Below, piece by piece: positions 10,210 through 44,085 of a DNA stretch of 56,252 bases. The position numbers were made by a program, and so were the translations under genes. Source of the stretch: Halorubrum kocurii JCM 14978. Lineage in GTDB: Archaea > Halobacteriota > Halobacteria > Halobacteriales > Haloferacaceae. Location of the stretch: the NCBI RefSeq assembly GCF_000337355.1, contig NZ_AOJH01000101.1, positions 1 through 56,252 of the forward strand, read 5' to 3'. How positions within the stretch are numbered: the stretch's first letter is position 1; each line of letters begins with the position of its first letter. The notes beneath the pieces were generated by a model that had not been told where the DNA came from, did not search any database, and saw only the letters and a program-made list of their open reading frames with translations.

Positions 10210-10230
10210 GTGTAATCCCACGACGGCGTT

Positions 10231-18627: not shown

Positions 18628-18829
18628 CGTCGTTACGGAGCCGTATGCGCCGTGGCCGTTTAAAATCCCCCCGGCAATTATCAGCGGCGACATCGGGCCC
18701 GGCGCTGGGCGGGCCTCGTCGGGTCGGATCCGTCGCCCAGATCCGTCGTCGACCCCGCGCCTCGCGCTGCTCGGCGGGGGATCCGCCCGTTACGTTCATA
18801 CGGGACGACCGCAAAGTACGAGTCAGGAA

Positions 18830-22755: not shown

Positions 22756-24117
22756 TCACTCCAGGTAGCCGAGATCCTCCAACTGCGACTCGATGCCTCG
22801 CGAGAGCTTTTCCGGATCCGACTTAGCCTCGTTTCCTCGCTCCGAGAGTTTCTCTACTCGACTCTCCATCGCCTCCGAGAACCGGTTCCGGAGCGGCTCC
22901 CGGTCTCCTGAGAGCGGTTCCCCGTCTGGGCCGAACAGGTAGTCTCTGCCGTCCTCGGCCCTGACGTATCGGTGCTCGCTATCGGTGAGGATCCGCCACT
23001 GGGTGGTCGGCTCGCTGGTCCGTCCGGTGTGCGGGACGTAGTCCTCGACGAGGGTGCCCTCCTCGCTGCACAACGCCTCCCTCGGCGGCAGTTCAGGATC
23101 GGTGACAAGATCGAAGATTCCGGTCAGACTCGCGGGGTCTGACACTCGCTCCGGGGAGTCCTGTTCGGGTCGTTTGACGATGAGCGGGACATCGGTGTTG
23201 ACCTCTCGTGTGGAGTGTGGCGGCGTCCCGTCACGGTCGAGGTCCCCGAGGTTCTTCCCATGATCAGAGGTTATCACCACGAGCGCGTCGTCGTACCTTC
23301 CGGTCTCTTTCAGTACCGACAGCAACTGATCGAGCTTTCGGTCCTGGTACCGGAGACTCGCGTCGTAGAACTCGAGAACGCGTTCGCGTCGCTCCGGCGG
23401 TAGGTCGCTCCGGCCGAGGACGTACGCCAGGAGTTTTGTGTTCAACAGCCGTGGCTCGATCGGTCCCGGCGGCGAGAGGTCGAGATCCTGGAAGGCGTCT
23501 TTCGGAGGAAAGTACGGGCTGTGTGCCTCCATCAGGTTCAGGAAAGTGAACGCCGGCGGTTCGTCGCGGGCGGTCGCTCGTAGCCACCTGCTCGCGCGAT
23601 TAACGAGATTCGAGGTGAACAGGGGCCGTTTCAGCAGGAACACGGGCTGGCGGGCGGCCTGCGCGAGCAGCCCGTGTGCCGCCGAGTACAGTCGGTCCCG
23701 CATCGTCGAGATGTCGGTGTCTCCGTCGACTCCGATCTCGAGATCCCACTCGACGTACTCGTCGAATCCTCTATCGATCTTGGACAGCGAGCCGACCCAT
23801 GGATTATTTGAAAACCCGGCCGTCCGGTAGCCGTCGGCCGAAAGCCGCTCTGTGAGCGTCTCGATCGACTCCGGGAGCCGCAACGACCGGTCGGAGAAGC
23901 CGTTCGTGATGCCGTGCTCGCTCGGCAGCAGGCCAGTGAACATTGAACAGTGCGAGGGTAACGTCCAGGGCGCCGCAGTGTACGCGCTTTCGAACAGCGT
24001 TGCCTCCTCCGCGAGCCGATCGAGGGTCGGGGTCGTCTTACGCTCATGCCCGTATGCGGAGACGCGGTCCCGACGAACCGAGTCGAGAATGACGAACAAG
24101 ATGTCGGGGTTGCTCAT
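22756..24117 (-). CDS. Alkaline-phosphatase-superfamily enzyme (sulfatase-like, Thr at nucleophile site)
   Basis: A 453-residue protein from the ATG at 24117. Metal ligands are visible in DILFVILDSVRRDR (Asp12) and TSDHGKNLGD. The nucleophile motif reads APWTLPSHCS, with Thr52 where true sulfatases have Cys/Ser in C/S-x-P-x-R. Thr at this site is known in phosphoglycerol and phosphoethanolamine transferases, so it may transfer or remove a phospho- or sulfo-group on the glycan rather than be a formylglycine sulfatase. No signal peptide is seen. It is convergent with the aldo/keto reductase. Its end (LEDLGYLE) resembles that of the protein at 48126-49100. Confidence 0.82.
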   Translation of the reverse strand: MSNPDILFVILDSVRRDRVSAYGHERKTTPTLDRLAEEATLFESAYTAAPWTLPSHCSMFTGLLPSEHGITNGFSDRSLRLPESIETLTERLSADGYRTAGFSNNPWVGSLSKIDRGFDEYVEWDLEIGVDGDTDISTMRDRLYSAAHGLLAQAARQPVFLLKRPLFTSNLVNRASRWLRATARDEPPAFTFLNLMEAHSPYFPPKDAFQDLDLSPPGPIEPRLLNTKLLAYVLGRSDLPPERRERVLEFYDASLRYQDRKLDQLLSVLKETGRYDDALVVITSDHGKNLGDLDRDGTPPHSTREVNTDVPLIVKRPEQDSPERVSDPASLTGIFDLVTDPELPPREALCSEEGTLVEDYVPHTGRTSEPTTQWRILTDSEHRYVRAEDGRDYLFGPDGEPLSGDREPLRNRFSEAMESRVEKLSERGNEAKSDPEKLSRGIESQLEDLGYLE

Positions 24118-24724
24118 ATGCGCTCGGAGTCTCGGTGTTGGCTTCGTTATGGACTCGTTGAACCCTATTACCAACAATATATCTCGCGCTCCTCAACGAT
24201 CAAGGTCGACTATATTCGCCGTATCTCAGGGGTCTAGACACATCTGTGTACGACCGAACCCCTGTCTGATAACGGGTCAGACACGGTTTATTTCTGTCCA
24301 CTATCGGACGAGATTCGTTTGACAAAGTCCCAGACGAACCTAGCATCCGTCATCGCTGTAGGTGATTTGAATTCTTCTTGTGATGGTGCGTAACAGATCG
24401 GGCGCTTTGGGCGGGCGTTGGGTTCTCTCCAGAACACACACGTCGAAGACGTGCTGTGCTATCGGGCCTGCAGCCGCTCAACGGGGCTCGTTTTGCGAAC
24501 GACTGTTCGGTCGGCTCGAAGCGCCGATTTCGAGGGTTAATACGAAATTAACTCCAATTACTGCTCACAAAGCCCTTCGCCCTGAAACCCTCGCGGACGG
24601 GATCTGAAAACATGAAAGTAGTAGACTGTCATACTATAATTCATGTGTAGATATGAAATTCATATAATAATGAACACGTCGGTAACAATACCGTTATATA
24701 GGTTAAGATCTGATTAATAATTGC
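24118..24724. other. 607-bp spacer with a possible gene fragment and a promoter
   Basis: No intact gene. On the minus strand a frame of about 54 codons (roughly 24288-24452, ending SSDSGQK, containing TDARFVWDFVKRI) reads like the C-terminus of a lost protein, but no start is present and I cannot name it. The right end is AT-rich and carries the promoter of the beta-helix gene at 24725, with TTATATA at about 24694-24700. Confidence 0.4.
24667..24724 (+). promoter_or_regulatory. Upstream block shared with the gene at 49526
   Basis: This 58-bp block ends at the start codon and is similar, at the same spacing, to 49468-49525. Twenty of the first 25 positions match, beginning ATAATGAACACG here and ATGATGAACATG there; similarity then drops. 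A TATA-like TTATATA lies about 28 nt before the ATG. Conservation ahead of two beta-helix genes 25 kb apart suggests a common promoter or regulator site. Confidence 0.55.
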
Positions 24725-27799: not shown

Positions 27800-28133
27800 G
27801 ACGTTACTCCGTCTCGGAATACGATCCCGCATGCTCGGTTCCGACTCCCTCTCGGAATCGGCGTGACCTACTTTGCGGTCGTCGGACATATCGCGTCAAA
27901 ACTGGAACGTGACTTCTCCCACAACAGAAGTCGTGGGCTTTCTCCTCGTTCTCGTGTAATCGGAGCGTTCGTCTTATTAGACACTGTATAATTATGACTT
28001 AGGTTCGGTTCTACCCGATCAGTGTTGCCTCCATCACAGTTCAACTACGCGAGCTGTACATTTTTGATAACGGATCAGAAACGATGGGCCAGGAAGCGGC
28101 CCGGCGATAGCGCCGCCTCTGATGGTATGTAAA
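27800..28133. other. 334-bp spacer with an IS200/IS605 end relic
   Basis: No gene. It holds the solo transposon end listed at 27911-27959. A T-rich stretch near 28059-28065 could be part of the promoter of the following lipoprotein gene. Confidence 0.4.
27911..27959 (-). mobile_element. Solo left end of an IS200/IS605-type element
   Basis: On the minus strand TTAC is followed by ACGAGAACGAGGAGAAAG and a palindrome (CCCACGAC-TTCTGTT-GTGGGAG). The TTAC-x-GAGGAGAAAG-hairpin layout is the same as at the left end of the element in the transducer gene (13350 side). No matching right end or transposase gene is nearby, so this is a relic. Confidence 0.6.
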
Positions 28134-29837: not shown

Positions 29838-30902
29838 TCAAATAGTAACTTCCTCGTAGACTGCCGTGATTCGTTCTGCAGCTGTCGCCCACGCATATTC
29901 ATCACAGACAAGGGAACGGTTCTTTCGCCCCATTCGTTCGGCTGCTGAGTCTTTCTCGACGAGTGAACCGATAGCGTCTGCGAGGGCGGCCGAGTCACCC
30001 GGATCGACGAGCGTTCCTCCGTCGTCGTCGATTACTTCCGGGATGCTCCCGACGGTTGTCGAGACGACTGCGTTGCCTCCTGCCATCGCTTCCAACATTG
30101 CGATCGGTAACCCCTCCGCATGGGACGGAAGAACAAATACGTCACCAGTCGAGAGCAATCGACGCTTCTCACGTTCTGTGACGAATCCGTGGTACGTGGC
30201 GTGTTCGTGGCGGGCTGTAAGCGTCTCAACTGACTCCTTCAGGGGTCCGGAACCGGCTATCGCCAGCTCGAAGTCGAGCGATCTATCCGACGCCAGCTCG
30301 TCCACAGCCTCGATCAACTCCCGGACACCCTTCCGTTGTATGAGCGACGAGACGAATGTCACTCGCGTTGGATCGTGACTATATTCGGGATCGAATCGGT
30401 TTGGGTCGACTGCGTTTGGAACAACCCTGATCTTGCGCCCTGGAACTCGGCTTTCGAACACCTGTCGCCAGTAGTCAGAGAGCACGATAATCCGATCACA
30501 CCGCTTGAACACGGCGGACTGGACTATACGAACGATCCGAGAATCTGTCTCGAGAAACGCATCGAAAGACGATCCGTGGACGTGAAAGACGATCGGCCGG
30601 CGCCAGAGCGACGCGACCACGAAAACGTAGAACGCCGCTCGGTAAAACGAGAACGCGTACGACGAGTGAACGTGAACGAGATCGGGTCGCCGCCGAACCG
30701 GAAAACGGACCGCAGCGACAATCGACATGACGATCGAAGTCAGTAGCCACCTGATACCCTCCCCGTTCGGATCAGATCGCATATCGTACGTTTCCGTCGC
30801 GATCTCGTCCGGAAGGTGTACCATTAGATTCTCGATGTAGTGGTGAATCCCGCCACCGCCGAACGTTCCCACGAGAAGAATGTCGGTGTCGAATTCTGTC
30901 AT
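29838..30902 (-). CDS. Glycosyltransferase family 4
   Basis: A 354-residue GT-B enzyme. The N-terminal domain begins DILLVGTFGGGGIHHYIENL (glycine loop). The C-terminal domain has IRVVPNAVDPNRFDP, FVSSLIQRKGVRELIEA and the nucleotide-sugar site PSHAEGLPIAMLEAMAGG with the two conserved Glu. It adds a sugar to a lipid-linked glycan at the cytoplasmic face. It is divergent from the GT2 gene across a 275-bp spacer that must hold both promoters. Confidence 0.9.
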   Translation of the reverse strand: MTEFDTDILLVGTFGGGGIHHYIENLMVHLPDEIATETYDMRSDPNGEGIRWLLTSIVMSIVAAVRFPVRRRPDLVHVHSSYAFSFYRAAFYVFVVASLWRRPIVFHVHGSSFDAFLETDSRIVRIVQSAVFKRCDRIIVLSDYWRQVFESRVPGRKIRVVPNAVDPNRFDPEYSHDPTRVTFVSSLIQRKGVRELIEAVDELASDRSLDFELAIAGSGPLKESVETLTARHEHATYHGFVTEREKRRLLSTGDVFVLPSHAEGLPIAMLEAMAGGNAVVSTTVGSIPEVIDDDGGTLVDPGDSAALADAIGSLVEKDSAAERMGRKNRSLVCDEYAWATAAERITAVYEEVTI

Positions 30903-31177: not shown

Positions 31178-32122
31178 ATGGTTGACTCGGTCAGCGTTGT
31201 TATTCCAACCTACGGACGTCCAAAGTTCCTCTGTGATGCCGTGCGTAGCGTCGCTGACCAGACGTACGCTCCGATCGAACTGATCGTTGTCGACGACTGT
31301 TCGCCCGAGCCGATCGAAGCGACAGTGAACGAGGTCGATACGGCTGGGCTCCGACGTACCGAAGTGATACGTCACAAGCAAAATATGGGCGCGAACGCCG
31401 CTCGGAACACCGGGATCGAAGCGGCGACCGGTGAGGTGATCGCGTTCCTGGACGACGACGACCGGTGGGGGCCGAGCGTCGTACGGAGGTACGTCGACGC
31501 GTTCGAATCGGGAGGACCGTCGGTAGGCGTCGTAACGGTCGGTGTTCGAACGGTCAACGAAAACGGAACGAAAATTGGGGAGTTCCGACCGACGATCGAG
31601 AGTGACGCGCTCGATGCCCTCTTGAGTGGAACTCGTGTCGGTTCGTTCTCTCGGTTCGCGGTTCGCTCGGACGTCATTGACAGTGCTGGTACGCCCGACG
31701 AGCGACTCCCATGCTGGCAGGACTGGGAGTGGCAGTTCCGACTCGCTTTTCACTGTGACTTTGGGGCGATCCCGGAGCCGATCGTCGTGCGAACCCGTGG
31801 CACCCACGATCAGATAACAGACACATTCGAAGAGCGACGAGAGATCGCGTATCCGTTCCTGTTGGATCGGCATCGTGAACGGATCCGAGCGGCGCGTGGC
31901 CCGCGTGCCGAACGCCGCTTCGTCGCGACCCTCTCGCAGTCGCTGGCATTCGCCGCTCTCGATACCGGCCGGTACCTCACAGGAGTCAGGTTACTACTTC
32001 GTACCTTGCGATACGACCCCTTCTCCTCGAAAGCGTATCTCTACCTGGTGGTTGCCTGCGGTGGTCCGGTGACCTTCGGGACCGCTCGATGGGTCAAGCG
32101 GCGACTCAATGCGCTCCAGTAA
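31178..32122 (+). CDS. Glycosyltransferase family 2
   Basis: A 314-residue GT-A enzyme. Motifs are SVVIPTYGRPKFLCDAVRSV, ELIVVDDCSPEP, NAARNTGIEAATGEVIAFLD with the metal-binding DDD, and a later CWQDWEWQFRLA acceptor-side motif. A C-terminal helical segment could associate with the membrane. It transfers a sugar from a nucleotide donor in glycan assembly. It is convergent with the asparagine-synthase-like gene (12 bp apart). Confidence 0.9.
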   Translation: MVDSVSVVIPTYGRPKFLCDAVRSVADQTYAPIELIVVDDCSPEPIEATVNEVDTAGLRRTEVIRHKQNMGANAARNTGIEAATGEVIAFLDDDDRWGPSVVRRYVDAFESGGPSVGVVTVGVRTVNENGTKIGEFRPTIESDALDALLSGTRVGSFSRFAVRSDVIDSAGTPDERLPCWQDWEWQFRLAFHCDFGAIPEPIVVRTRGTHDQITDTFEERREIAYPFLLDRHRERIRAARGPRAERRFVATLSQSLAFAALDTGRYLTGVRLLLRTLRYDPFSSKAYLYLVVACGGPVTFGTARWVKRRLNALQ

Positions 32123-32134
32123 CTCAACAGTAGG

Positions 32135-33898
32135 TCACGCAGACTCCTGGCCGAGAATCCGTCTGTAAAAGAGTTCGACGGTTGTAACTGCCGATATATA
32201 CACAATATGATCGTCGTCGCCTTGAAGATGTGCCCGTCGCGCCTCGAGGATCGGTTCAGCGTTGAACAGCTCACGCTCGACGGCCCCGTACAGGAGCTCG
32301 TCCAGGTACTCCCGGAAGCAGTCGTTCTCGCGGTACCATTCTCCCACGGTGCTTCCCGAGAGGAGACGTTGGACGGCGTTTTTGACCACGAACCCAGCAC
32401 CGTGAGCCGCGTGTGGGTACGACGGCGGGAGCTGTGTCGCCCCGTAGGGAATCTCGTTTAGCGCACCGTCCAGTTCCCGCATCAGTTCCAACTTCATCCG
32501 AGAGGGTACGTGCGGGATACGTCCGCCCGTAAGCGGGATCGATCCTCGGCGCAGGGATTGGGGAAAGACGCCGACCAGATCGAGAAGCCCCTTCGAGCTG
32601 ATCGGGACACGAGTTCCCACCCTCGCTCGGGCAACTTTGTTGCTACCGCTGAAGTGTTTTCGAGAATTGTACACGAGGTGGGTTACCTCTCTGATCTGCT
32701 CGTCACTACCGGTTTGATCGACGGCCCGGACCTCATTTATGAACGTATCTTTCGGTTCTACATCACCCGAAAGTGTTTCTTTCACTAGCTTCGGATCGAC
32801 TCTCGTATGGAGTTCGCTCAAAACATCTGCCGGGTGATCGGCACGACCGAGGTGGTTCTTCCCGACCTTTTCACCTGTGACGAGTGGCGGCCCCTCGTAC
32901 AGTACCATCGGATTCGTTGCGTCGATCTCGAAGACGTGTGAGAGATGGATGAGCGTGTTCCATCCGAGCTGGCCGTCCGTGATCTCGATCAGTTCCGGTA
33001 ACCGCTCGGCCAGTGTCTCGGGTGTGAATCCGACGATGTCGTGTTCGACGCCGAGCGTGTCGGCGACGGAGTTTGCAATATCGATATCGTCGAGGAACGG
33101 ATCGAATTTTGGATCCATCGCCCGATCGTACGTGTACGTTCGATACTCGGTACCTGCTCGCTCTAGCGCCGCAACAAGAATCCGACTGTCCAGTCCGCCG
33201 GACAACCAGACGCCCGGCGTCCCAGGAACGGTCTCAAGCGACGCACTAACGGCATCGGCGTATGCGCCTGCGGTCTCCTCGACGTAGCCGGCCTCCGGAC
33301 GAGAGTCGAACAGAAACGACCAGTACCGCCGAACACTCCGTTCCCCCTTCTCTGCGAGGACGTAGGTCGCGGGCCTGAGTGATTTCACATCTTCGAGAAG
33401 CGTTCGGTCGCCCCAGATGTGTATCATCGTCAGCAGGTCCGAAACGGACTGTTCGTCGACAGTCGGATCCTCGATCGCGGTCAGCACGGAACTTAACTCG
33501 GAGCCGAACACGAACGGTGGATCGCGTGTATAGTACACTGAACGAGTTCCCAACTTGTCGGTGGCGAGGACGAACCGATTCGCGTCCCGATCTAGGCACG
33601 CGAGCGCGAATGACCCATCCAGCATCGGGATAATTCGCTCTGGGTTATCGAGAATTCGCTGGATCAGGTCCCTCGTGAAACTCTCCGGAGTGCCGAACAG
33701 CGCTCCGTACAGTACGCCGACGACATCCCCTCCGTCAACCAATTCGTATCCGCCCGGATCACGTTCACCGTGGTGAACCATTCCGAGCGTCGGATCCGCA
33801 CAAAGGACTTCCTCGTCGTGGAACGACCGGCGGTACGTCCCGGCTATCATCTCGTTCGGAGGTGGCGCATTCTCGTCTCCGCCGAATAGTCCCGGCAC
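32135..33898 (-). CDS. Asparagine synthase-like protein lacking the glutaminase Cys
   Basis: A 587-residue protein resembling AsnB: an N-terminal Ntn-glutaminase-like domain (residues ~1-200) and a C-terminal ATP-pyrophosphatase domain with PP-loop SGGLDSR (233-239). It begins M-P-G-L-F-G, so the catalytic Cys2 of glutaminase domains is replaced by Pro; ammonia would have to come from elsewhere. It starts with GTG at 33898, with AT-rich TATA-like sequence at 33921-33942. In glycan clusters such proteins may amidate sugar acids or use another nitrogen donor. True asparagine synthesis is less likely. Confidence 0.82.
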   Translation of the reverse strand: MPGLFGGDENAPPPNEMIAGTYRRSFHDEEVLCADPTLGMVHHGERDPGGYELVDGGDVVGVLYGALFGTPESFTRDLIQRILDNPERIIPMLDGSFALACLDRDANRFVLATDKLGTRSVYYTRDPPFVFGSELSSVLTAIEDPTVDEQSVSDLLTMIHIWGDRTLLEDVKSLRPATYVLAEKGERSVRRYWSFLFDSRPEAGYVEETAGAYADAVSASLETVPGTPGVWLSGGLDSRILVAALERAGTEYRTYTYDRAMDPKFDPFLDDIDIANSVADTLGVEHDIVGFTPETLAERLPELIEITDGQLGWNTLIHLSHVFEIDATNPMVLYEGPPLVTGEKVGKNHLGRADHPADVLSELHTRVDPKLVKETLSGDVEPKDTFINEVRAVDQTGSDEQIREVTHLVYNSRKHFSGSNKVARARVGTRVPISSKGLLDLVGVFPQSLRRGSIPLTGGRIPHVPSRMKLELMRELDGALNEIPYGATQLPPSYPHAAHGAGFVVKNAVQRLLSGSTVGEWYRENDCFREYLDELLYGAVERELFNAEPILEARRAHLQGDDDHIVYISAVTTVELFYRRILGQESA

Positions 33899-34098: not shown

Positions 34099-35241
34099 TT
34101 ATTTATCGACGTATATAGACAGCCTTTGTTCCTCTTCGAACGACGATGGGCTACGAACAATCATTTTTCCATGATTTCGTCTCGTGTTGAAGGGATTGAT
34201 GAGGAGGTCTCCGTCGGGCGTCGTGTCCAGAAACGCGTATGCGTTCGCGGTCGGAACCGCCGGAATCACTGTCCCGAGCGTGGCTGACCGCTCGACGGCA
34301 ACCAGCTGATGCCATCGCTTGAATCCGGACTGACGAGAGGCCGCGATCACCCGAACCGGTTTCGGCCCGATTCCGTTGGTTTCTGGACCGGTACTATCCG
34401 TTCCTGTGGTTGATGCCGTCGAGAACACTACCCACGTCGTTCTATCCGACTGGATTGTTTCGGCGTAGAATACTGGGGCGTCGACCGCACCAACCGGTTC
34501 CGGGGTGGGTTGGTCGACAAGTGGGTCGGCCGACTCGGAGGGAATATCGTCTCTCGAGAGCCGAAGGATATCGATTCGAGGAGCATACGAACAGTCCATT
34601 CCCCAGAGCACTGCATCCGGCGTGAACGCAAGATCGACGGCCCGCCAGGTCTGACAGCCACCACCAACGGGATGGTACTCGCCATCGATGAACCGTCCGA
34701 TCGTGCTTTCTTCGTTCGTATCTCCCGTCGCTCCCCAGAGTGAACCGGTGTAGGGATCGTGAAACAGGCCATGGAAGTGACGCACGTCGGAGTTGCTCAC
34801 GTACGTCGACCATCGTCGCCCATCATCACTGACAATAACTCTCGCCGTCTCGTCGCCGAGCGGATATTCGGCGAGGTAGACACGGTCTTCGTGCTGGCAG
34901 ACGGCAGTTGGAAGAACACCCATCGGCCCGGAGGATTCCGGTAACGTGTGAACCAGGCTCCACGACCGCCCCTGATCGACCGAGAAAAACAGTTCGTTCC
35001 CAATGGTCGCCAGCAGCCGACCGCCGCCGATCGGCCACAGGTTCGCCGTCGTGACGGATCCGATGATACGACTGAGCAGGCGGCCGATTGCGGGAGTATC
35101 GAAGAACCGTGCGACTACGTCGGATCCGGGTACCGACCCCACTCGTTCGAAGCCGCGACGCCGGCTCCATCTCCCGGCCGCCAGCCCTCGGGTGACGTGG
35201 ACGACACCGTCCTCGACGCCGCCGAGCTTCATACCCGGCAT
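34099..35241 (-). CDS. BNR/sialidase-like beta-propeller protein
   Basis: A 380-residue protein with repeated propeller blades. Asp-box-like turns are seen at SVDQGRSWSLV and SDDGRRWSTYV. No Tat, Sec or membrane signal is present. The ATG immediately follows the stop codon of the upstream membrane-protein gene (TAA-ATG), so the two are cotranslated; an ATG three codons later is an alternative. Arg residues of a sialidase active site cannot be assigned. It may bind or process a glycan intermediate; function unknown. Confidence 0.65.
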   Translation of the reverse strand: MPGMKLGGVEDGVVHVTRGLAAGRWSRRRGFERVGSVPGSDVVARFFDTPAIGRLLSRIIGSVTTANLWPIGGGRLLATIGNELFFSVDQGRSWSLVHTLPESSGPMGVLPTAVCQHEDRVYLAEYPLGDETARVIVSDDGRRWSTYVSNSDVRHFHGLFHDPYTGSLWGATGDTNEESTIGRFIDGEYHPVGGGCQTWRAVDLAFTPDAVLWGMDCSYAPRIDILRLSRDDIPSESADPLVDQPTPEPVGAVDAPVFYAETIQSDRTTWVVFSTASTTGTDSTGPETNGIGPKPVRVIAASRQSGFKRWHQLVAVERSATLGTVIPAVPTANAYAFLDTTPDGDLLINPFNTRRNHGKMIVRSPSSFEEEQRLSIYVDK

Positions 35242-37128
35242 TTAGGCCTCGTCCTGCCCAGGGTCGTCTCCCGAACTTCTCGGTGTCACGTAGTACAAAT
35301 CGAACTCGCCGTTATCCTGTACGTGGTGAACTCCGGGATAACCACCGATCGATTCAAACGACCCCGCCGAGTACCGCAGCTCCCGATATGCGATCACCTC
35401 TCGGTCCACATCTGCCTGTGATACCGGGAGATATTGTGCTTCTGCTGTCCCTCCTGAAAGGAGGAGTCGGAGATCCTCTTCTCCGTATGTGGACTCACCG
35501 GTACTCACGTCAGGGCGGTCGTAGAGCACCGTTCCCGAGACCAGCGCGTCGAACTCCCGACCCGGGCCGTTCCGGATTCCGTTCCACTGGATGTCCTCGG
35601 CCCTGTAGTCTATTGCGGTCTCGTATCCGTCCATGTGCTGATCGCTTACGTGGTGTGAGCCGTTGTATATGTAGGGAGAAGCAAAAACGGTTGAGAGCGA
35701 TAGCGCGAGCGCGACAACGAGAAGGATGACAGCGACAGGTCTGGCCGCTTGCCGCCATCCCCCAGTCGGGATCAGCTCGCCGATGTGGTGAATCATAGCG
35801 GCCCCGAGGACGAGGGCGAACACCATCGCGAACCCGTAGTGCCTGAAGAACAGGTGTGAGACCGGACCCAAAAAGTGCGCCAAAAAGAATGGACCGAGAA
35901 CGAGTCCCACGTATCCGAAGTAAATGACAACTGACCGAGTGAGAGAGTCATCGTCCGTAGATGGGCCTTTCAGACCAGAATCTGTGAACTGACTCCAGAG
36001 AGAGAACACGACCGTCAGGAACGCTAACACGAGGTACACTGACGGTACTAAGAACAGCTTCACGAACAGTTCGAGTACTGTCGCTTCAACCGAGAGCGCC
36101 GATTGGTACCTGGCCTCTACCGACTCGCCGGCGCTACCAGTTCCGAGGATTACCTCTGACGTCGAGACTAGCACCCGTTCACCGACGATGAATACCATTT
36201 CGAATTGGAAAATCCAAGCCACCCAACAGAGGGTCATAAGAACGAATACGCCGTAGACCGGTCGAAGGTCCGTGAGAAACAGATTGAGTCGTTTTCGCAA
36301 CCCGTGTAACACTACCAGGGTACCCAGAAGGATAACGACGTTTAAGGCTAATTGAGGGTGCGTGAAAATGAGCGTGACCCCTAGCACCGAGAGCAAGACG
36401 TTCCACCTGCCAACGCGGTGGACGATCGAGTCGCCCCTTCTGCTGCTCTTGAGGTGTTTCACCAGCACGTACAGAAATACGGGAAAGAAAAATGTCGCCA
36501 TCGAATACGTGTGAAAGAACAGCCCGTTCGCGATCTGGTTGATCGGCAGCACGGTAAATCCGGAGAACGCAGCGATTACGCTCATCCGATTATTATCGAA
36601 TAGCGCCTTTACGATCAGGGGAATAAACAGCGCGTACAACACAAAATATAACGCGGCAAACAAGAGCATCCCTCGCTCAACGGGTACACCAATCGCGTCT
36701 GTCAGTAACACGGTCGTGCTGTGTCCTCCCGGGTAGAACACGTCTCCGAACCGCATATTCCCGGCCAGCATCTCTGCTGCCCAACCGAGATGGGTCATCG
36801 GATCTGCGCGGCCGTAAAATCGGTAGCTACGGATAACCGGTAACGATCCGATTGAGACGGTAGTCAACCAGCCAAGCCCCACCGCTAACCCTGCGAGTCT
36901 GTCGTGACACGACTCCAAAGTGACCACCGCTGCGGCGAGGAATCCGATAGAGACACCGATCCAAAACGGCACCGGAGTTGCTGCGTACATCGATACTTCG
37001 TACCCCGTCGCTGGCGTTTGCCACGCGACGATCGTGCCGATGGCGACGGCCATGAAGCCTATCGCAAGGAGCAGCCTGCGCCAGGAGCCGGCCGATCCTG
37101 AACTTGATGCTCCTTGACGATCGCTCAT
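35242..37128 (-). CDS. Large polytopic membrane protein, possible GT-C glycosyltransferase or polymerase
   Basis: A 628-residue protein from the ATG at 37128; the longer frame would need a TTG start. It has about 12 hydrophobic helices followed by a soluble ~120-residue tail ending HHVQDNGEFDLYYVTPRS. The first extracytoplasmic loop contains YGRADPMTHLGWAAEM, a D-x-x-x-H arrangement seen in lipid-phosphate-sugar-dependent GT-C enzymes. No dedicated Wzy polymerase is otherwise present in the island, so this is a candidate for that step. It is coupled to the downstream beta-propeller gene. Confidence 0.68.
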   Translation of the reverse strand: MSDRQGASSSGSAGSWRRLLLAIGFMAVAIGTIVAWQTPATGYEVSMYAATPVPFWIGVSIGFLAAAVVTLESCHDRLAGLAVGLGWLTTVSIGSLPVIRSYRFYGRADPMTHLGWAAEMLAGNMRFGDVFYPGGHSTTVLLTDAIGVPVERGMLLFAALYFVLYALFIPLIVKALFDNNRMSVIAAFSGFTVLPINQIANGLFFHTYSMATFFFPVFLYVLVKHLKSSRRGDSIVHRVGRWNVLLSVLGVTLIFTHPQLALNVVILLGTLVVLHGLRKRLNLFLTDLRPVYGVFVLMTLCWVAWIFQFEMVFIVGERVLVSTSEVILGTGSAGESVEARYQSALSVEATVLELFVKLFLVPSVYLVLAFLTVVFSLWSQFTDSGLKGPSTDDDSLTRSVVIYFGYVGLVLGPFFLAHFLGPVSHLFFRHYGFAMVFALVLGAAMIHHIGELIPTGGWRQAARPVAVILLVVALALSLSTVFASPYIYNGSHHVSDQHMDGYETAIDYRAEDIQWNGIRNGPGREFDALVSGTVLYDRPDVSTGESTYGEEDLRLLLSGGTAEAQYLPVSQADVDREVIAYRELRYSAGSFESIGGYPGVHHVQDNGEFDLYYVTPRSSGDDPGQDEA

Positions 37129-37266
37129 CGGTTGAACGAGAGGGTCGATAGAGATTGTTAGCAACGTCCTAACCCTCTCTAAAGGATGTTTGATGGAAAA
37201 TTCAACCGGCCGTCTGCTGGCAGGTTCAAGACCAGAATCAGTTTTCGGTGCGGTGATCGACCAAAG

Positions 37267-38664
37267 TTACTGTTGGTTGAGATTATCACCGCATTTGTGT
37301 GTTAGGAATGCCGACAGCGCCAAACACATCCATGCCTGGTTCCACCGAATGTACGGAGTTTTGTCGGTTACAAACCGTCCGACCCGACGGTAAAAGTATC
37401 CCTCGGAGTCGTACAGTCGATTCAGTGTCCACTCGAGGACGTTTCTGGCGAGGACAGCGTCTTTCGGATTGTCCCGAGATGTGAACGTGACGAGTGCCTG
37501 TGCCGCAGCGTGCACGTCATACGGCCGGGACTGGTCGTCCTCGAACTTCGGCGCTCCGTCGGCCTCGAAGTGGTTTTGGCGGTGGAACTGCATCCCCTTT
37601 TCGTACGCCTTTCGGACCGGGTCGCCGTCATCCCGCCCGTGAGCGTACCGGCTGAGGCTTTCGAGAATAAATCCCGTGTGGAAGTTGTCGTACCCCAAGT
37701 GCGAATCCGACGCCGGAACTGAGTAGTTCCACCCGCCCACGTCCGTCTGGGCGTCGATGACGAACGCAAACAGCTCCTGTGCGCGGTCGAGGAGTTTCTC
37801 GTCGCCGAGTCGCCGACCCACTCGCCAAATTAGGTCTGCCGCGAGTGCGTTCGCATTGATCGCCACGTACGAGTCGTACGGTGTGTACGTGAGCACCTCG
37901 TGCCCGTTGACTGACTCCGTTCCGATGTCCTCGAGAAGAAACGTAACCGCGTCGTGAGCCACCTCAAGCGACGGTTCGAAACCTGTCAGCTCGTGGTGCC
38001 GGAGAAACGGACGAGCACAGAACACGGTCACGACTCCGCACGGATGGGTCGCCGGGAGGAAGAACTTCGTCGAGTTCTGCCAGTCGAAGTTGTATCCCCA
38101 CGACGAGCGCCCGAACGCCGGCGACCGGTTGTCCGAAAGCCAGTCCAGCAGCCGTTCCGCCTCGGTGAGGGCGGCGACATCGTCCGTCCGTTCGTATTCG
38201 TTCAGGTACGCGCTGGCGAACAGGCCAATTCCCTTCGGATTCCGTCTCTCGGGGATACCGAGGTACGGTCTGAGATTCAGCGGGAACTTCTGGACGCCGT
38301 GAATCGACAACAGCCGGAGCAGCCAGTGTCGAGAAAGCGCCGACAGAATCGGACTGTTCAGACCATCGTACGGGTCGTACCCGGCATAGTCGCGCTCACG
38401 TGCCCACACGAGGGCGTTTCGACAGACGGCTGCCGTATCGTATCCCGCGACTACCGGGCCATCTTGAACGCCGAAATCGTCGCACTCAGACGTATCAACC
38501 GCGTTAGATACGTCAACTGCGAAGAAATCAGTGTCACTCTGGCTCTCGTTCGCTGATTCCCGAACGTCCCATTCCGGCGCAGTCGCCGCCTCGATCACGT
38601 TTGTCTTGGCTCCTGATCCTGCTCGCGATCGATCAGCGCCCTTGTCCGTCGCGTCCTGACCCAT
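37267..38664 (-). CDS. Alpha/alpha-toroid protein of a glycan cluster (six-hairpin-like)
   Basis: A 465-residue soluble protein. The first ~70 residues are a variable acidic stretch. The rest shows repeated paired helices with aromatic turns (SSWGYNFDWQNSTKFF, YDSYVAINANALAADLIW, VGGWNYSVPASDSHLGYDNF, YFYRRVGRF), as in (alpha/alpha)6 barrels such as six-hairpin glycosidases and epimerases. Related haloarchaeal proteins have often been misnamed as antibiotic-transporter permeases, but no membrane helices exist here. A sugar-processing role is inferred from fold and neighbours. Confidence 0.65.
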   Translation of the reverse strand: MGQDATDKGADRSRAGSGAKTNVIEAATAPEWDVRESANESQSDTDFFAVDVSNAVDTSECDDFGVQDGPVVAGYDTAAVCRNALVWARERDYAGYDPYDGLNSPILSALSRHWLLRLLSIHGVQKFPLNLRPYLGIPERRNPKGIGLFASAYLNEYERTDDVAALTEAERLLDWLSDNRSPAFGRSSWGYNFDWQNSTKFFLPATHPCGVVTVFCARPFLRHHELTGFEPSLEVAHDAVTFLLEDIGTESVNGHEVLTYTPYDSYVAINANALAADLIWRVGRRLGDEKLLDRAQELFAFVIDAQTDVGGWNYSVPASDSHLGYDNFHTGFILESLSRYAHGRDDGDPVRKAYEKGMQFHRQNHFEADGAPKFEDDQSRPYDVHAAAQALVTFTSRDNPKDAVLARNVLEWTLNRLYDSEGYFYRRVGRFVTDKTPYIRWNQAWMCLALSAFLTHKCGDNLNQQ

Positions 38665-38830
38665 TCATCCGTGTCTTGGATCGGGGTCAGTAAGTTATGA
38701 AGTAGTTTCCTCTGATCGCCTCACACCGAGGCCAATCGAGTCCTACGGAAACATTACGCGTCGGACACGGGTCTACGGGAGTATTCGCCGTATACCGTGG
38801 AGAAAACAACCGTGGGTGGGAGTACACCGC

Positions 38831-39934
38831 TCACTTCACTTGGCTCATATCTGGACGTTCGGCCGATCCCGGATCCGAGTCGAGCGTTGGGTTCTCGGGA
38901 TTCTCGATCAACGCCCGCACGAGTGAGGACACCTCTTTTCGAACTTGGAAGCATCGCTCCCGGTCCGGCATCCGGTCCGTTGTTCCGACCGCCATCAGAT
39001 ACGAGGAAATTTCGCCGGGGTCGCGGGAGTGAACGATCAGTCCATCCTCCACCATCGACCTGTCGACCGACAGCAGTGGTCCAGGGAAGAAAGATATCGC
39101 AGGCTTCCCCATACAGGCCGCCTCCCGTGCCATCGTTCCCGACCCGGTCAGGACGCCGTCGGAATGCCAGGCTAGCTGGAGGCCGTCAAGCGCACCGTCG
39201 GGGACGTACACACGGTCGTCCGGATACGGGTCTGCATGCGGACGATCTCCGGGCCTGCGTGGCAGGTACACGATGTTGGCTCCTGCCGCTGTGAGCGCCT
39301 CCAGCAGTTGGGGAACGAGCGACTCTTTCTCGTCGACGTAGGCCGCACCCAGCGCCTCGGGACGGAGTACAACATAGGTCTCGAAGGGTAGCCTTTCGGT
39401 GAACGACTCATCAGGATCGAAGCTCGCTACGTAGATATCCTCTTTGTAGCCGCTGTACGTGTGTATCCGGTCCGAATCTGCCCCCCATCGTGTCAGCTCC
39501 GAGATTTGGAACGCTGACGGGACGACGTGGTGAGTTGCAGCCGCCCTGAACCGACAGAACGCCCGCTCGACCAGCGGCGCGTCGACGTATGCAGTAATAT
39601 CGTTGTCAGTAAAATGGATCGACGGGGTCCCTCGTGCTCGCGATGCCAGCACACACATCGCATTTCGAGCAGACAACGAAACGTCTGCAGCGGGCGCCTG
39701 TAAGGTGACTTGGATGGTGCGAAGCGGAACGGCTGCGGTCCGTAGGGTGACGTTCTCGAAATCACGACCCAGCAGGTCAAAATCGAATCCTGCCTCGCGG
39801 GCGAGATCTGCGGTCTCCGTCTTCTTTCGGACGGTCGTTCGGAATCTGATGTCGCCCATATCGTCTAGTAGCCCCTCAAAAAGGAACGGATGTGACGGGC
39901 TTATCAGATCGAGCCACACGCTTGTTTCGGTCAT
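38831..39934 (-). CDS. DUF354-family protein (UDP-GlcNAc 2-epimerase-like fold)
   Basis: A 367-residue protein from the ATG at 39934. The frame stays open for 57 more codons upstream but only with a TTG start. The N-terminus VWLDLISPSHPFLFEGLLDD and the C-terminal DGVLTGSGTMAREAACMGKP with its glycine-rich nucleotide-sugar site identify DUF354, a GT-B-like family common in archaeal glycan clusters. It may be an epimerase or transferase. A strongly AT-rich block at 40139-40170 probably holds its promoter, implying a long leader. Confidence 0.8.
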   Translation of the reverse strand: MTETSVWLDLISPSHPFLFEGLLDDMGDIRFRTTVRKKTETADLAREAGFDFDLLGRDFENVTLRTAAVPLRTIQVTLQAPAADVSLSARNAMCVLASRARGTPSIHFTDNDITAYVDAPLVERAFCRFRAAATHHVVPSAFQISELTRWGADSDRIHTYSGYKEDIYVASFDPDESFTERLPFETYVVLRPEALGAAYVDEKESLVPQLLEALTAAGANIVYLPRRPGDRPHADPYPDDRVYVPDGALDGLQLAWHSDGVLTGSGTMAREAACMGKPAISFFPGPLLSVDRSMVEDGLIVHSRDPGEISSYLMAVGTTDRMPDRERCFQVRKEVSSLVRALIENPENPTLDSDPGSAERPDMSQVK

Positions 39935-40424
39935 CTTGGACTCCGTCTGCTGGAGATCCGTTCGTTCGTGCCGATAGGGAGGACGCTGTTGGCGGTCACC
40001 AATTCGGACAGACGCCACGCGTCTCGTTGGTCGCTCGAATACATAGTTCGTCTCGGTCGTGGTCTTCCGCGGGATGTGTTCCGACCCGAGACCTGCCTCG
40101 TTCAAACAATGATATGTACTTCGTTATAGACACTCAAGGTGAATATCTACATATTTAATTATATAAATGAACAGATAGTACACTACAAAACTGCCGTTCG
40201 ACGCTCTATTTAAGTGTCCAAAGCGAAGTCATTCCGAACAGCCTTCGGGAGCCACCTCGTCGCCGCGAACGAAACAACATCCGAAACGCCGACATGGTGA
40301 CCGCGGATGCGAAAAGCGTCCGCCCCTGTGCCGCCAGCCGAGTAACCATCACGACAACTCCGAATCCACTCCTACTCCACGACGGAAGTCCGAGAGACGG
40401 GATATCTAACGAGATCTTACTCGC
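39935..40424. other. 490-bp spacer with an AT-rich promoter block
   Basis: No convincing gene. The AT-rich stretch at 40139-40170 is the likely promoter of the DUF354 gene. Between 40209 and 40424 the minus strand stays open for 72 codons in frame with, and directly after, the DUF1616 stop codon. It has no start context or family resemblance that I trust. Confidence 0.4.
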
Positions 40425-41396
40425 TTAATCAGTATGTATCCAGACATGAACCGATCGGTACGCGGTTTCAGGTCCCGGGTCGGTCGGCGGTTCACCACGG
40501 TACAGGAAAAACCGCAATCGGACGTTTTCGCCCGTCATCAATCGCGTCACGCTGTGGTTCTGAATGATTGTCTCGCCTGACTCGACGGTCACCGCGAACT
40601 CGTCGGCATTCTCGACGGCTGTTACCGTTCCGTTTTGAACTCTCTCGAAGCGTACCGCTACAGAGTACTCTCTTGGTTCGCCCTCACTGTTCTCGATGAG
40701 AACCGCCATCTCAGCAGTCTCACCGATTGCAAGGTCTTCGGGGTAGCCATCGGTGACGAATTCGCCGTCCTGCTCGCTCCCGACCGCGAAATCAGTGAAC
40801 GTTGCACCTTGCTGTGGGATGGCGAACGCCACCCCGACGGCTCCGATGGCCAGCAGCACGCTGACCGCGAGTACGATATTGACCGTGGCGGCTCCAGTAG
40901 ACTCTTCCGTCGTCGACGTCACGCTCCTTTCGAACCACTCTCTGACCGGGACCTCGAACCGGTCACGTTCTAATAATTGCGACCGACGATATCTCCCGAT
41001 AATGGCCATAATAGCCGAAAAGACGGCTGTGACCGCGATTATCGGACCGACAACCTGCCCCAGCACAAGGTCGAAACCGAACGCGAACAGCGGAAGCAGT
41101 CCAGCACTTACCCCCACGGAAACCGCAGTACGCTCAACGAGGTCTAGCCGAGAAACCCCGTCATCTCCACGCTCCGAACTCAGCTCGTTCGTCGCCCGGG
41201 TGTCTTTGGTCGGTCCTCCCGGAAACAGTACCGTAGTAAGGGTGAATCCCGGTAGAAACAACAACACTGGTGCTAGGAAAACGATCCGGATCGAAGACGA
41301 GAGCTCGATCCACTGGAGGGGGACGACTGCCGCGGTGTAGGCGAGAATCGCGACGACGTCCCACGAGAGCATTCGCGTGGATGAATTATCCATCAT
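40425..41396 (-). CDS. DUF1616 membrane protein
   Basis: A 323-residue protein with four to five hydrophobic helices in the first 200 residues (LSWDVVAILAYTAAVVPLQW; LAPVLLFLPGFTLTTVLFPG). An extracytoplasmic domain follows with IGETAEMAVLIENSEGEPREYSVAV. This layout is characteristic of DUF1616, common in archaeal surface-glycan clusters and of unknown function. Two adjacent ATG codons open the frame; the first is used here. It follows the GT4 gene on the same strand after 230 bp. Confidence 0.85.
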   Translation of the reverse strand: MMDNSSTRMLSWDVVAILAYTAAVVPLQWIELSSSIRIVFLAPVLLFLPGFTLTTVLFPGGPTKDTRATNELSSERGDDGVSRLDLVERTAVSVGVSAGLLPLFAFGFDLVLGQVVGPIIAVTAVFSAIMAIIGRYRRSQLLERDRFEVPVREWFERSVTSTTEESTGAATVNIVLAVSVLLAIGAVGVAFAIPQQGATFTDFAVGSEQDGEFVTDGYPEDLAIGETAEMAVLIENSEGEPREYSVAVRFERVQNGTVTAVENADEFAVTVESGETIIQNHSVTRLMTGENVRLRFFLYRGEPPTDPGPETAYRSVHVWIHTD

Positions 41397-41626
41397 CTGT
41401 CATTTCTGTCGCTGTCGTCTCTCTCACCCCGTCCGTCTCGACGACCTCTCGTCTGACGGACCGCTTGACCAACCGATGTCGAAGCCGGATTCGGTCTCGT
41501 TGCGTGAGGTCAACGCTAGCTATACCTGTGACTGCCGCTTAGACGAACAGCGACTTCGTTAGGCGGTCCATTCACCCGCCCCCCGATTCGCAGTCGAGGA
41601 CGCTGATTCATGCCATTGGACGTCAC

Positions 41627-42739
41627 TCACCGAGACACTCGCGCTGCTTTCAGAGTGTACACGTACCGCGTCCGTTCGGCAATTCGGTCCCAGTCAAACT
41701 TTTCAGCCTCCTTCCCATTCCGCTGTCCCATCTCTCGCAGCCGCTCGCGATCGCCGATCGCCTTCCGGAGCGCGACCTGAAGCCCCCCGGGCGTTTCGGG
41801 GGCATATAGATAGCCGCCCTCGGATCCGATAAGTCCGGGGAGACACCCCATTGTCGGCGCCACGACAGCGCGACCGAACGTCATCGCCAACACTGCGCTG
41901 CCGGAGGTCAACACCGAGTCGAAGGGAAGTACCACCGCGTCCGTAGCGCGCATATACACCTGTATCTCGTCTTCGGGAACGTATTCGAGGACCGTGTGTA
42001 CCCGATTATCGTCGGCACTGGCCGCGCGCACGCGACTTTCTATTTCTTCGTTCCACGGATTCCCGACGACGAGGAGCCTGGCATCTCCGGAAACGCGTTT
42101 GAACGCCTCGATCAATCCGGGGACGTTCTTGTAGGGGCGTATCAGTCCGAAGAAGGCGACGACGGGGGTATCGAGAGAGAGATCAAGCCGCTCGCGGGCC
42201 GTCGACTGAGATACATCGTTCCCGTAGACATCCCCGAAGTTGCCGTGGGCGACGACGCGGATACGGTTCGAGACTCGTTCGGGAAGCCGGTACGTCTCCG
42301 CGACCAACGTGACCGCCGCTTCGCAGTGGACGATAAGTCTGTCAGTGAGCCACGCGACTGCGTGTCTGATCACGAGTTCGCTGCGCGGGGCGGTCCGTTC
42401 GTGATCGAGGAGATTGTGGACGGTCCAGACGATTCGAACCCCGAGTGCCCGTAACAGTACGAGTTCAAAGATGAGTCTCACACCGAGTAGCACAGCGACC
42501 ACAGCGGGGAACCGGCGATTGGTAATGACGAAACGGTGAAGCCAGTGGAGGTGGAGCACATCTGGTACCCCGTGACGGCGAACGCCTGCGAGAAGCGGAA
42601 ACGCCCAGCCCCCGCTCGCCGCTGAGACTTCGATATCGTGGGAGTCTAACGCATCGATCAGTTCGGACTGATACGGATTCGATTCCCTGTAGTCCGGACA
42701 CATTAGCACCGTGATCCGGCCGTCGTCGGAATTGGTCAT
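41627..42739 (-). CDS. Glycosyltransferase family 4 (beta-mannosyltransferase-like)
   Basis: A 370-residue GT-B enzyme from the ATG at 42739, preferred over a GTG two codons upstream. It contains HLHWLHRFV, IVWTVHNLLDHE, VVAFFGLIRPYKNVPGLIEA and SGSAVLAMTFGRAVVAP. The last motif replaces the usual E-x7-E and resembles the Alg1/GT33-type nucleotide-sugar site. It is cytoplasmic, possibly membrane-associated through its hydrophobic VVAVLLGVRLIFELVLL stretch. It acts in assembly of the lipid-linked glycan. Confidence 0.85.
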   Translation of the reverse strand: MTNSDDGRITVLMCPDYRESNPYQSELIDALDSHDIEVSAASGGWAFPLLAGVRRHGVPDVLHLHWLHRFVITNRRFPAVVAVLLGVRLIFELVLLRALGVRIVWTVHNLLDHERTAPRSELVIRHAVAWLTDRLIVHCEAAVTLVAETYRLPERVSNRIRVVAHGNFGDVYGNDVSQSTARERLDLSLDTPVVAFFGLIRPYKNVPGLIEAFKRVSGDARLLVVGNPWNEEIESRVRAASADDNRVHTVLEYVPEDEIQVYMRATDAVVLPFDSVLTSGSAVLAMTFGRAVVAPTMGCLPGLIGSEGGYLYAPETPGGLQVALRKAIGDRERLREMGQRNGKEAEKFDWDRIAERTRYVYTLKAARVSR

Positions 42740-42951
42740 CGCCACCGCCCGATAGCGTTCTTAGGCGTCATGCGAGCGATGAGGCACACCACGGACATTG
42801 TTATGGACTTTTGAACGGTCAGGCGGACGATTTCGCCGTCGTCCGGCGTGACGACACAGACGTGACGGGGGGTGGGATCTGAGTGGCACGGCCGAGCGAT
42901 GAGGTTCGTTAATGTACTCCTACTCTTACTCGGACAACTCGAAATTCTGGC

Positions 42952-44085
42952 ATGGAGTTCCGACACGAACGCATCGACGATGACCCTCCATGCGGTCGAC
43001 TCGGGTTCTGTCTCACGCCCGACCTCACCGGTAATGGGAGGCCAGACGTGCTCGTCGGCGGAATGGGTGCGAAAAAGCCGGTAAAGGTACTCGGCAAGCG
43101 GATAATACTCCGGCACTTACCAATCGTCGGAAGCGCGATCAAGCGGCTGGAGTCCAACGTGTTCTGGTACGAGAACCCCGGTTGGGAGCGACACGAGGTC
43201 GCACGGATCCCCGACCTCTCGGTCGGCGGGTCGATCGGTGATATCGACGGCGACGGGGCGCCCGAACTCGTTATCGGACAGAACGGCGGGACCGATCTCT
43301 ACTGGTTCGATATCCCGTCGAACCCGCGACGGACTTGGTCCCGTCACTTGATCACCGACGAGTTCCGAAAGTACCACGACACGGCGATCGCCGACATCGA
43401 TGACGACGGCGAACCGGAAGTCGTCATCCTCTCACAACAGAGCGAGACGGTCTGTTACTACGATATTCCCGAAGACCCCTCTGTCTCCCCCTGGCCCGAC
43501 GGTCACCGACACGTGATCGCCGAGGGGCTGAACGTCGAAGGGGTCGCCGTCACCGACCTCGACGGCGACGGGACCACCGAACTCGTCGCCGGGCCGAACG
43601 TGTTTCGGCGGAACGGGCCCGTGGACGACTGGGGCCGCGAACGTCTCGGTGATGACTGGCAGTGGACGCGGGTCGCTGTCGCGGACCTCGACGATGACGG
43701 GGACATAGAGGTAGTCGTAACTGAGGGAGACCTCCCGTATCAGGGGGATCGACGGGGGCGTGTCGGGGTGTTCGATCCGCCGGACTGGTCCGTGACGACA
43801 CTCGACGACGACCTGTACAATCCACACACGATCCAGATCGAGGACTTCGACGGAGACGGCCGACCCGACTTACTCGTCGCCGAGATGGGTCGGGAGGGCA
43901 AAGACGACCCGCGGATGTTCATTTACCGGAATACCGACGAGGGATTCGAGCGCGTCGAGATCGATCGCGGCGTCGCGACTCATGAAGCGAAGGCGGTCGA
44001 CATCACGGGCGACGGGTCGCTCGATATCGTCGGGAAGTCATACGATCCAGACTGTCACGTCGACGTCTGGTATCGGCAATATTAA
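42952..44085 (+). CDS. FG-GAP/VCBS beta-propeller protein without signal peptide
   Basis: A 377-residue protein with about seven FG-GAP-like blades. Each carries a calcium-loop motif of the type DIDGDGAPELVIG, DIDDDGEPEVVIL, DLDGDGTTELVAG, DLDDDGDIEVVVT or DFDGDGRPDLLVA. Such propellers are normally extracellular, yet no Tat or Sec signal precedes the ATG. It is divergent from the GT4 gene and convergent with the SAM hydrolase gene, at the right edge of the glycan island. It may recognise glycan; no catalytic motif was seen. Confidence 0.82.
   Translation: MEFRHERIDDDPPCGRLGFCLTPDLTGNGRPDVLVGGMGAKKPVKVLGKRIILRHLPIVGSAIKRLESNVFWYENPGWERHEVARIPDLSVGGSIGDIDGDGAPELVIGQNGGTDLYWFDIPSNPRRTWSRHLITDEFRKYHDTAIADIDDDGEPEVVILSQQSETVCYYDIPEDPSVSPWPDGHRHVIAEGLNVEGVAVTDLDGDGTTELVAGPNVFRRNGPVDDWGRERLGDDWQWTRVAVADLDDDGDIEVVVTEGDLPYQGDRRGRVGVFDPPDWSVTTLDDDLYNPHTIQIEDFDGDGRPDLLVAEMGREGKDDPRMFIYRNTDEGFERVEIDRGVATHEAKAVDITGDGSLDIVGKSYDPDCHVDVWYRQY

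Follow-up and report, generated by a model that had tools for sequence, protein, structure and literature searches.

An α/α-toroid protein without a recognisable export signal and its DUF354 partner in haloarchaeal glycan islands

Two haloarchaeal proteins are the closest described precedents for the locus discussed here. AglQ (HVO_1523), which takes part in N-glycosylation in Haloferax volcanii, is a soluble protein that was modelled on the toroids of AGE and glucuronyl hydrolases, was proposed to be an isomerase, and is needed for the dolichol-linked glycan to proceed past its third sugar (PMC3827465). Agl32 of Halobacterium salinarum is a D-glucuronyl C5-epimerase that epimerises glucuronic acid in a lipid-linked tetrasaccharide before export; it is predicted to form a single all-α domain, which in Foldseek is best matched by AGE epimerases, and it is aglB-anchored (PMC13308652). 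The action of a cytoplasmic toroid on a lipid-linked glycan is thus already known in kind. We analysed a stretch of 56,252 nucleotides from Halorubrum kocurii JCM 14978 (hereafter the window), in which positions 34,099–44,085 encode a toroid protein (TOR), two β-propellers of the BNR and FG-GAP types, a DUF354 protein, a DUF1616 protein and a GT-C-like protein. TOR is most likely a cytoplasmic sugar-modifying enzyme, perhaps epimerase-like, that works with DUF354. A literature search, with subscription papers outside its scope, found no description of this gene set.

Like AglQ, TOR is a soluble toroid-type (AGE/GH88-like) protein encoded in a haloarchaeal glycan cluster, but AglQ belongs to the aglB cluster, whereas TOR lies outside it in the loci tested and is often paired with DUF354. 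An identity of the two was rejected: once AglQ had been located in locus L220 by 16/16 published residues, phmmer with AglQ returned three open reading frames (ORFs), none of which is TOR, and hhalign gave 54% over 95 columns, a weak local superfamily signal of distant homology. TOR was likewise rejected as an aglB-cluster gene. The sole AglB of the H. kocurii genome is on a contig (C102) other than that of the window (C101); the TOR profile had no match in the aglB flanks of 20 genomes, nor in five Haloferax genomes (additional Haloferax aglB flanks being searched for AglQ only), and 98 ORF clusters from aglB flanks reached 2.5% at most against TOR in hhalign. A search with PF07221, aimed at Agl32/AglQ, found no match beside AglB, and AglB and TOR lie within ~50 kb of each other in a few genomes (e.g. 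G069 and G053). Agl32 shares with TOR an all-α make-up and AGE-type best matches, a likeness by fold description, and differs from it in being anchored to aglB according to PMC13308652.

Fold, conserved residues and export signals

The AlphaFold2 model of TOR, built with 80 relatives (predicted local distance difference test, pLDDT, 87.5; predicted template modelling score, pTM, 0.85), shows confident paired helices from residue ~64 on; residues 1–63 are of low confidence, and the Halobellus homologue is annotated with a start 52 codons later. Foldseek ranked AGE-superfamily epimerases at the top (5zhb, 1.2e-8), and the best VIA-align match was cellobiose 2-epimerase 9l8i (Z 32.4, 342 aligned residues, 3.4 Å), with GH76 4v1r at Z 31.6 and GH105/GH88 at Z 27–28. 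As far as a model can do so, this confirms TOR as an α/α toroid whose nearest folds are AGE epimerases, GH76 and unsaturated-glucuronyl hydrolases. It resembles the AGE superfamily (cellobiose 2-epimerase and others) in fold, at Z about 32, whereas identity is only about 11–15%. Opposite the AGE 'PGH..EW' stretch, which we take to be the catalytic-histidine region, TOR appears to have no histidine where the profiles align (hhalign probability 84.8%, with a thin haloarchaeal AGE alignment). The window TOR has no predicted membrane span; many plasmid-borne relatives carry the RefSeq label 'antibiotic ABC transporter permease' (e.g. L235:12067-13281).

In an alignment of 81 archaeal and bacterial TOR members (80 of 83 listed rows plus the window protein; alignments A5 and A1 hold 31 of 42 listed rows and 22 of 56 relatives, respectively, each plus the window protein), G95, D100, Y260, W312, Y314, D326, H329, P381, D383 and W441 are invariant, N270, R132, R440 and F424 have one exception each and H385 has two, a set such as would be expected for an enzyme. 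The weak Pfam matches of the 81 members (GH88 in 45, Pec_lyase in 42, GH127 in 39, GH76 in 23, C5-epim_C in 21 and AGE in four) fall mostly on short stretches resembling generic helix-pair repeats and point to the toroid superfamily as a whole. Against PF06662 (D-glucuronyl C5-epimerase), the window TOR had no match at E ≤ 0.1; 21/81 members did, and among ten scanned singly one exceeded the gathering score (28.6 vs 23.3 bits). The best hhalign register between TOR and GLCE, the heparan sulfate D-glucuronyl C5-epimerase (6hzz), places invariant Y260 on Y500 and near-invariant N270 on N510. Of five C5-epim_C placements on TOR relatives, three fit the register and the remaining two are offset by one helix pair, provided that the Pfam start position in GLCE is as we assume. 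A GLCE-like catalytic site in TOR is a lead only. GLCE is eukaryotic and acts on a polymer, and TOR is without its β-hairpin or β-sandwich domain; that GLCE structures are absent among the 50 VIA/Foldseek matches listed for TOR carries no weight.

The model of the BNR protein is all-β (pLDDT 89, pTM 0.90) and retrieved GH74, sortilin, sialidase and WD40 propellers in Foldseek, profile searches matched GH74 chains (best E 1.2e-7), and two Asp-box motifs are visible in the sequence. Judged by this model, the protein is an Asp-box β-propeller of the BNR/sialidase type; the FG-GAP protein is predicted to be a propeller from its Pfam match. Models and fold searches have thus borne out the toroid and BNR propeller calls of a preliminary description of the window, made from its letters and ORFs, and its FG-GAP, DUF354 and DUF1616 calls are clear by Pfam.

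The same description had noted that the toroid and both propellers lack export signals. This was examined with a crude home-made Tat/Sec (twin-arginine/general secretion) test, not SignalP, in which every ATG, GTG or TTG start up to 120 aa upstream was allowed and for which a looser threshold was used because an earlier, stricter one missed most β-helix controls. Positives numbered 1/129 for TOR, 2/23 for BNR, 0/7 for FG-GAP, 1/64 for DUF354 and 1/18 for the sulfatase-fold protein encoded nearby, against 17/20 and 15/16 for relatives of two neighbouring β-helix proteins. Both BNR positives are distant bacterial relatives (L117 and L150) with an N-terminal membrane segment; the other 21 gave none. 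Since the lack of a signal is conserved in relatives even when upstream starts are allowed, while the exported neighbours score, the absence of a recognisable signal is a conserved feature rather than the product of mis-called starts, and the observation has held up. From their sequences, TOR and the propellers look cytoplasmic.

Distribution, linkage and genomic context

TOR relatives occur in 69/243 genomes of the haloarchaeal order and also in bacteria. Beyond this survey, the best 80 of 326 relatives represent 79 loci, of which record titles assign 27 to archaea and 52 to bacteria; their haloarchaeal loci overlap in organisms with the 39 haloarchaeal survey loci (e.g. L035/L076), so that counts from the two sets are not independent. 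DUF354 lies beside TOR (within ~1.5 kb) in 19/19 subfamily-A haloarchaeal loci, and a strong DUF354 match (>250 bits) is found within 3 kb in 42/79 loci (17 archaeal and 25 bacterial); several pairs overlap or lie a few bases apart on the same strand. The distance matrices of the two proteins are correlated (r 0.90 for all, 0.95 for bacteria and 0.61 for archaea), and no more than four of 2000 permutations reached such a value. The BNR propeller is present in 28/243 haloarchaeal genomes, and TOR in 26 of these 28 compared with 43 of the 215 propeller-less genomes (Fisher p 2.6e-14, species relatedness uncorrected); propeller and TOR genes are within 11 kb in 22/28 genomes and within 100 bases in seven. 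The gene set is not a random collection, and the survey of co-occurring genes that the preliminary description had proposed has revealed a recurring one. In many genomes (L038, L040, L050 and other f5/f14), two TOR paralogues of different subfamilies lie ~5–13 kb apart, and in several of these the second directly adjoins the propeller.

The set also occurs on plasmids. In Halobellus sp. DFY28 (L234:12568-22631), a copy with ~80–84% DNA identity in aligned pieces has the order FG-GAP, GT4, DUF1616, DUF354, TOR, multi-span protein and propeller, as in the window; farther along, a sulfatase and an aldo/keto reductase gene also match the window, and the region carries in addition wecB and a nucleotide-sugar dehydrogenase gene. 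Because of this syntenic copy, the block has probably been exchanged between genera. Much of the set recurs, differently ordered, on a plasmid of Halobaculum.

In bacterial loci of the Chitinophagaceae type, the TOR–DUF354 pair is part of a conserved operon of considerable length that also encodes GT4, GINT1_N, Gfo/Idh/MocA, WecB (Epimerase_2), an acyltransferase and a priming transferase of the Bac_transf family, while neighbours in Chloroflexota and Acidobacteria include asparagine synthase, aminotransferase and Bac_transf. Over the bacterial TOR loci, Bac_transf and WecB are each found in 24/52. Among archaeal TOR loci, WecB and nucleotide-sugar dehydrogenase are each found in 22/39, compared with 0/69 and 15/69 aglB half-loci; the archaeal loci of the best-80 set give 7/27 and 11/27. 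The theme common to these contexts would be the assembly of glycans on a carrier lipid in the cytoplasm.

The island and its other genes

The H. kocurii genome comprises 3.62 Mb in 105 contigs. The island that contains the set (~19.7–44.1 kb) has a GC (guanine plus cytosine) fraction of about 0.55–0.61, against 0.64–0.73 directly on both flanks, and all genes named in the preliminary description were found where it had placed them (Table 1). Its statement that the set matches neither Wzx/Wzy nor AglB clusters stands in so far as AglB is absent from the window, but is not quite right for Wzx because the island also encodes a MOP/Wzx-type flippase, a feature of Wzx/Wzy-type islands. This protein matches PF13440 (3.4e-77) and, under the curated cut-offs, the NCBIfam families PRK10459 (1.8e-61) and O-glycosylation flippase (7.2e-38). 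As to a Wzy polymerase, the multi-span GT-C-like protein of the set matched no family.

Table 1. Genes of the low-GC island, those of the toroid–propeller set first
Position	Strand	Feature	Basis
37267..38664	−	TOR, signal-less α/α-toroid protein, 465 aa (longest ORF)	model, fold searches
38831..40105	−	GT-B-like DUF354 protein (PF04007), usually paired with TOR subfamily A	Pfam, linkage
34099..35241	−	Asp-box (BNR-like) β-propeller, signal-less, 380 aa	model, fold and profile matches
42952..44085	+	FG-GAP (VCBS-type) propeller, signal-less	Pfam
35242..37164	−	multi-membrane-span GT-C-like protein, 640 aa	hydrophobic segment count
40425..41396	−	DUF1616 membrane protein (PF07760)	Pfam
41627..42745	−	GT4 glycosyltransferase	Pfam
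32135..33898	−	asparagine-synthase-like protein	Pfam/NCBIfam
31178..32122	+	GT2 glycosyltransferase	Pfam
29838..30902	−	GT4 glycosyltransferase, second	Pfam
22756..24177	−	sulfatase-fold protein, signal-less, Thr at nucleophile position	Pfam/NCBIfam
19766..21265	+	MOP/Wzx-type flippase; outside 34,099–44,085, within the same island	PF13440
21772..22695	+	aldo/keto reductase; syntenic on Halobellus plasmid	
24725–27799 and 28122–29621	+	two related β-helix proteins, Tat/lipobox-like starts	

Pfam recognised DUF1616 (1.7e-74), FG-GAP_3 (5.6e-28) and GT4, and the DUF354 protein passes the PF04007 gathering score (86 bits vs 22, E 3.5e-24); the 380-, 640- and 465-aa proteins have no Pfam family at E ≤ 0.1 and none is named by NCBIfam. 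The function of DUF354 was called obscure in a 2015 fold survey (PMC4520260), and no title among the literature matches listed concerns DUF354 in glycan clusters; for DUF1616, HVO_2173 is listed in the literature as a glycosylated membrane protein. The 640-aa protein has about 11 hydrophobic segments in a simple Kyte–Doolittle count, and a search for a solved relative found none, so that its GT-C identity is putative. A second FG-GAP protein, of 54–56% identity, is encoded elsewhere in the genome (C43:60887-62266) and adjoins another GT2 gene.

Several neighbours have features of their own. The asparagine-synthase-like protein begins MPGLFGG without Cys2, a residue required by glutamine amidotransferases, and its earliest Cys is residue 33. 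In the sulfatase-fold protein, the Thr of TLPSHCSMFTG, shared by all seven homologues above 450 bits, occupies the position at which sulfatases, by the consensus that we assume, carry the formylglycine Cys/Ser. Because it is without a signal and because VNG1056C and VNG1057C, which belong to a haloarchaeal glycan cluster, are sulfatase-fold glycan sulfotransferases (PMC11980604), this protein may by analogy act as a transferase and not as a sulfatase; the likeness lies in the presence of alkaline-phosphatase-fold genes in both glycan clusters, and here the protein is a neighbour of TOR. The longer β-helix protein has three near-identical C-terminal repeats. Outside the island, an ATPase-like ORF (16825-18693, −) ends in tandem QNNGTGG-type repeats, and an ABC-transporter permease-like ORF is flanked by two similar ~484-aa proteins encoded towards each other (6467-7921, +, and 8764-10221, −).

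Explanations for the set and their weight

Building on the fold, the lack of recognisable signals, the conserved residues, the linkage and the correlated trees, we infer a location, a substrate, a reaction and a role for the propellers as follows. Products of the island would assemble a lipid-carried surface glycan on the cytoplasmic side of the membrane, and the Wzx-type flippase would export it. Before export, TOR would act in the cytoplasm on a sugar of the intermediate, which would be lipid-linked (or nucleotide-linked), and would edit it, epimerisation or isomerisation being the likeliest reaction, with DUF354 as a GT-B-like partner that may supply, add or process the sugar concerned. The two would form a portable module of archaea and bacteria, which the Asp-box propeller might join in haloarchaea as an extra cytoplasmic component, either accessory or enzyme. 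We lean, if only slightly, towards this model as a whole. The proposal of the preliminary description that the set may work intracellularly on lipid-linked glycan is plausible by analogy: the cytoplasmic look of the proteins, the invariant residues of the toroid and the recurrence of the genes speak for it, and its wording on Wzx/Wzy is the part that does not fit.

Several observations weigh against the preferred model. An AGE-like fold does not fix the function of TOR, since hydrolases and lyases have it as well. The window's own island has neither WecB nor nucleotide-sugar dehydrogenase. DUF354 is beside only 3/20 of the other, non-subfamily-A haloarchaeal TOR loci, and 37/79 loci are without a strong DUF354 within 3 kb. 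In many genomes DUF354 is also found without TOR; it is commoner overall (155/243 genomes have DUF354 and 69/243 have TOR), and only one of its branches would therefore belong to the pair. Finally, the hhalign score between TOR and GLCE (19.5) is below the maximum of 40 shuffles (20.0), and GLCE homology was rejected as proof of TOR function since the score is no higher than in these shuffled controls. A bolder version of the model, in which TOR would be a new cytoplasmic family of glycan-level uronyl/hexosaminyl C5-epimerase-like enzymes with a GLCE-like Tyr/Asn/Tyr/His site, forming with DUF354 a two-gene pre-export editing module in archaea and bacteria and in haloarchaea a cytoplasmic assembly with Asp-box and FG-GAP propellers, is in our view doubtful.

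It is possible, if somewhat unlikely, that TOR instead works in the cytoplasm as a glycoside hydrolase or lyase, either trimming or proof-reading lipid-linked glycan that has been wrongly assembled or recycling oligosaccharide. The weak Pfam matches, in which GH88, Pec_lyase, GH127 and GH76 lead C5-epim_C and AGE, are in favour of this, as are the GH76 and GH105/88 structures at Z 27–32, but the generic nature of most matched stretches argues against it, and a degradative role seems difficult to reconcile with recurring neighbours that are the biosynthetic-looking DUF354 and biosynthetic operons. That TOR is an AGE-like 2-epimerase acting on amino sugars, whether free or activated, and feeding in sugars of the N-acetylmannosamine type, would agree with its top structural match and with the frequency of WecB-type neighbours. 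However, WecB is already present in many of these clusters, and the apparent lack of a histidine opposite 'PGH..EW' points the same way with only moderate confidence; this explanation is improbable. We give as little credence to an ordinary variable glycan island with unrelated passengers of horizontal transfer: low GC, the syntenic plasmid copy and patchy distribution are what it would predict, whereas the specific, repeated TOR–DUF354 and TOR–BNR adjacency across families, and of DUF354 across domains of life, is not. Export along a route that has gone unrecognised, or from start codons that were not called, with extracellular action as in most relatives of these folds, is more improbable still: haloarchaeal Tat signals can be atypical and the two distant bacterial BNR relatives have their membrane segment, but the test that scores relatives of the exported β-helix neighbours is nearly or entirely negative for TOR, the other BNR proteins and FG-GAP.

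The sugar-editing role preferred here for TOR and DUF354 would be of some consequence, since sugars that already form part of a lipid-linked chain are rarely edited. TOR proteins are widespread, and their names in RefSeq plasmid records are 'antibiotic ABC transporter permease' or 'hypothetical protein'. The recurrence of TOR with DUF354 in many archaea and bacteria suggests a not yet described step in the building of surface sugars. If the model is correct, an editing family common to archaea and bacteria would offer a way into many uncharacterised clusters for exopolysaccharides and S-layer glycans, as well as into DUF354.

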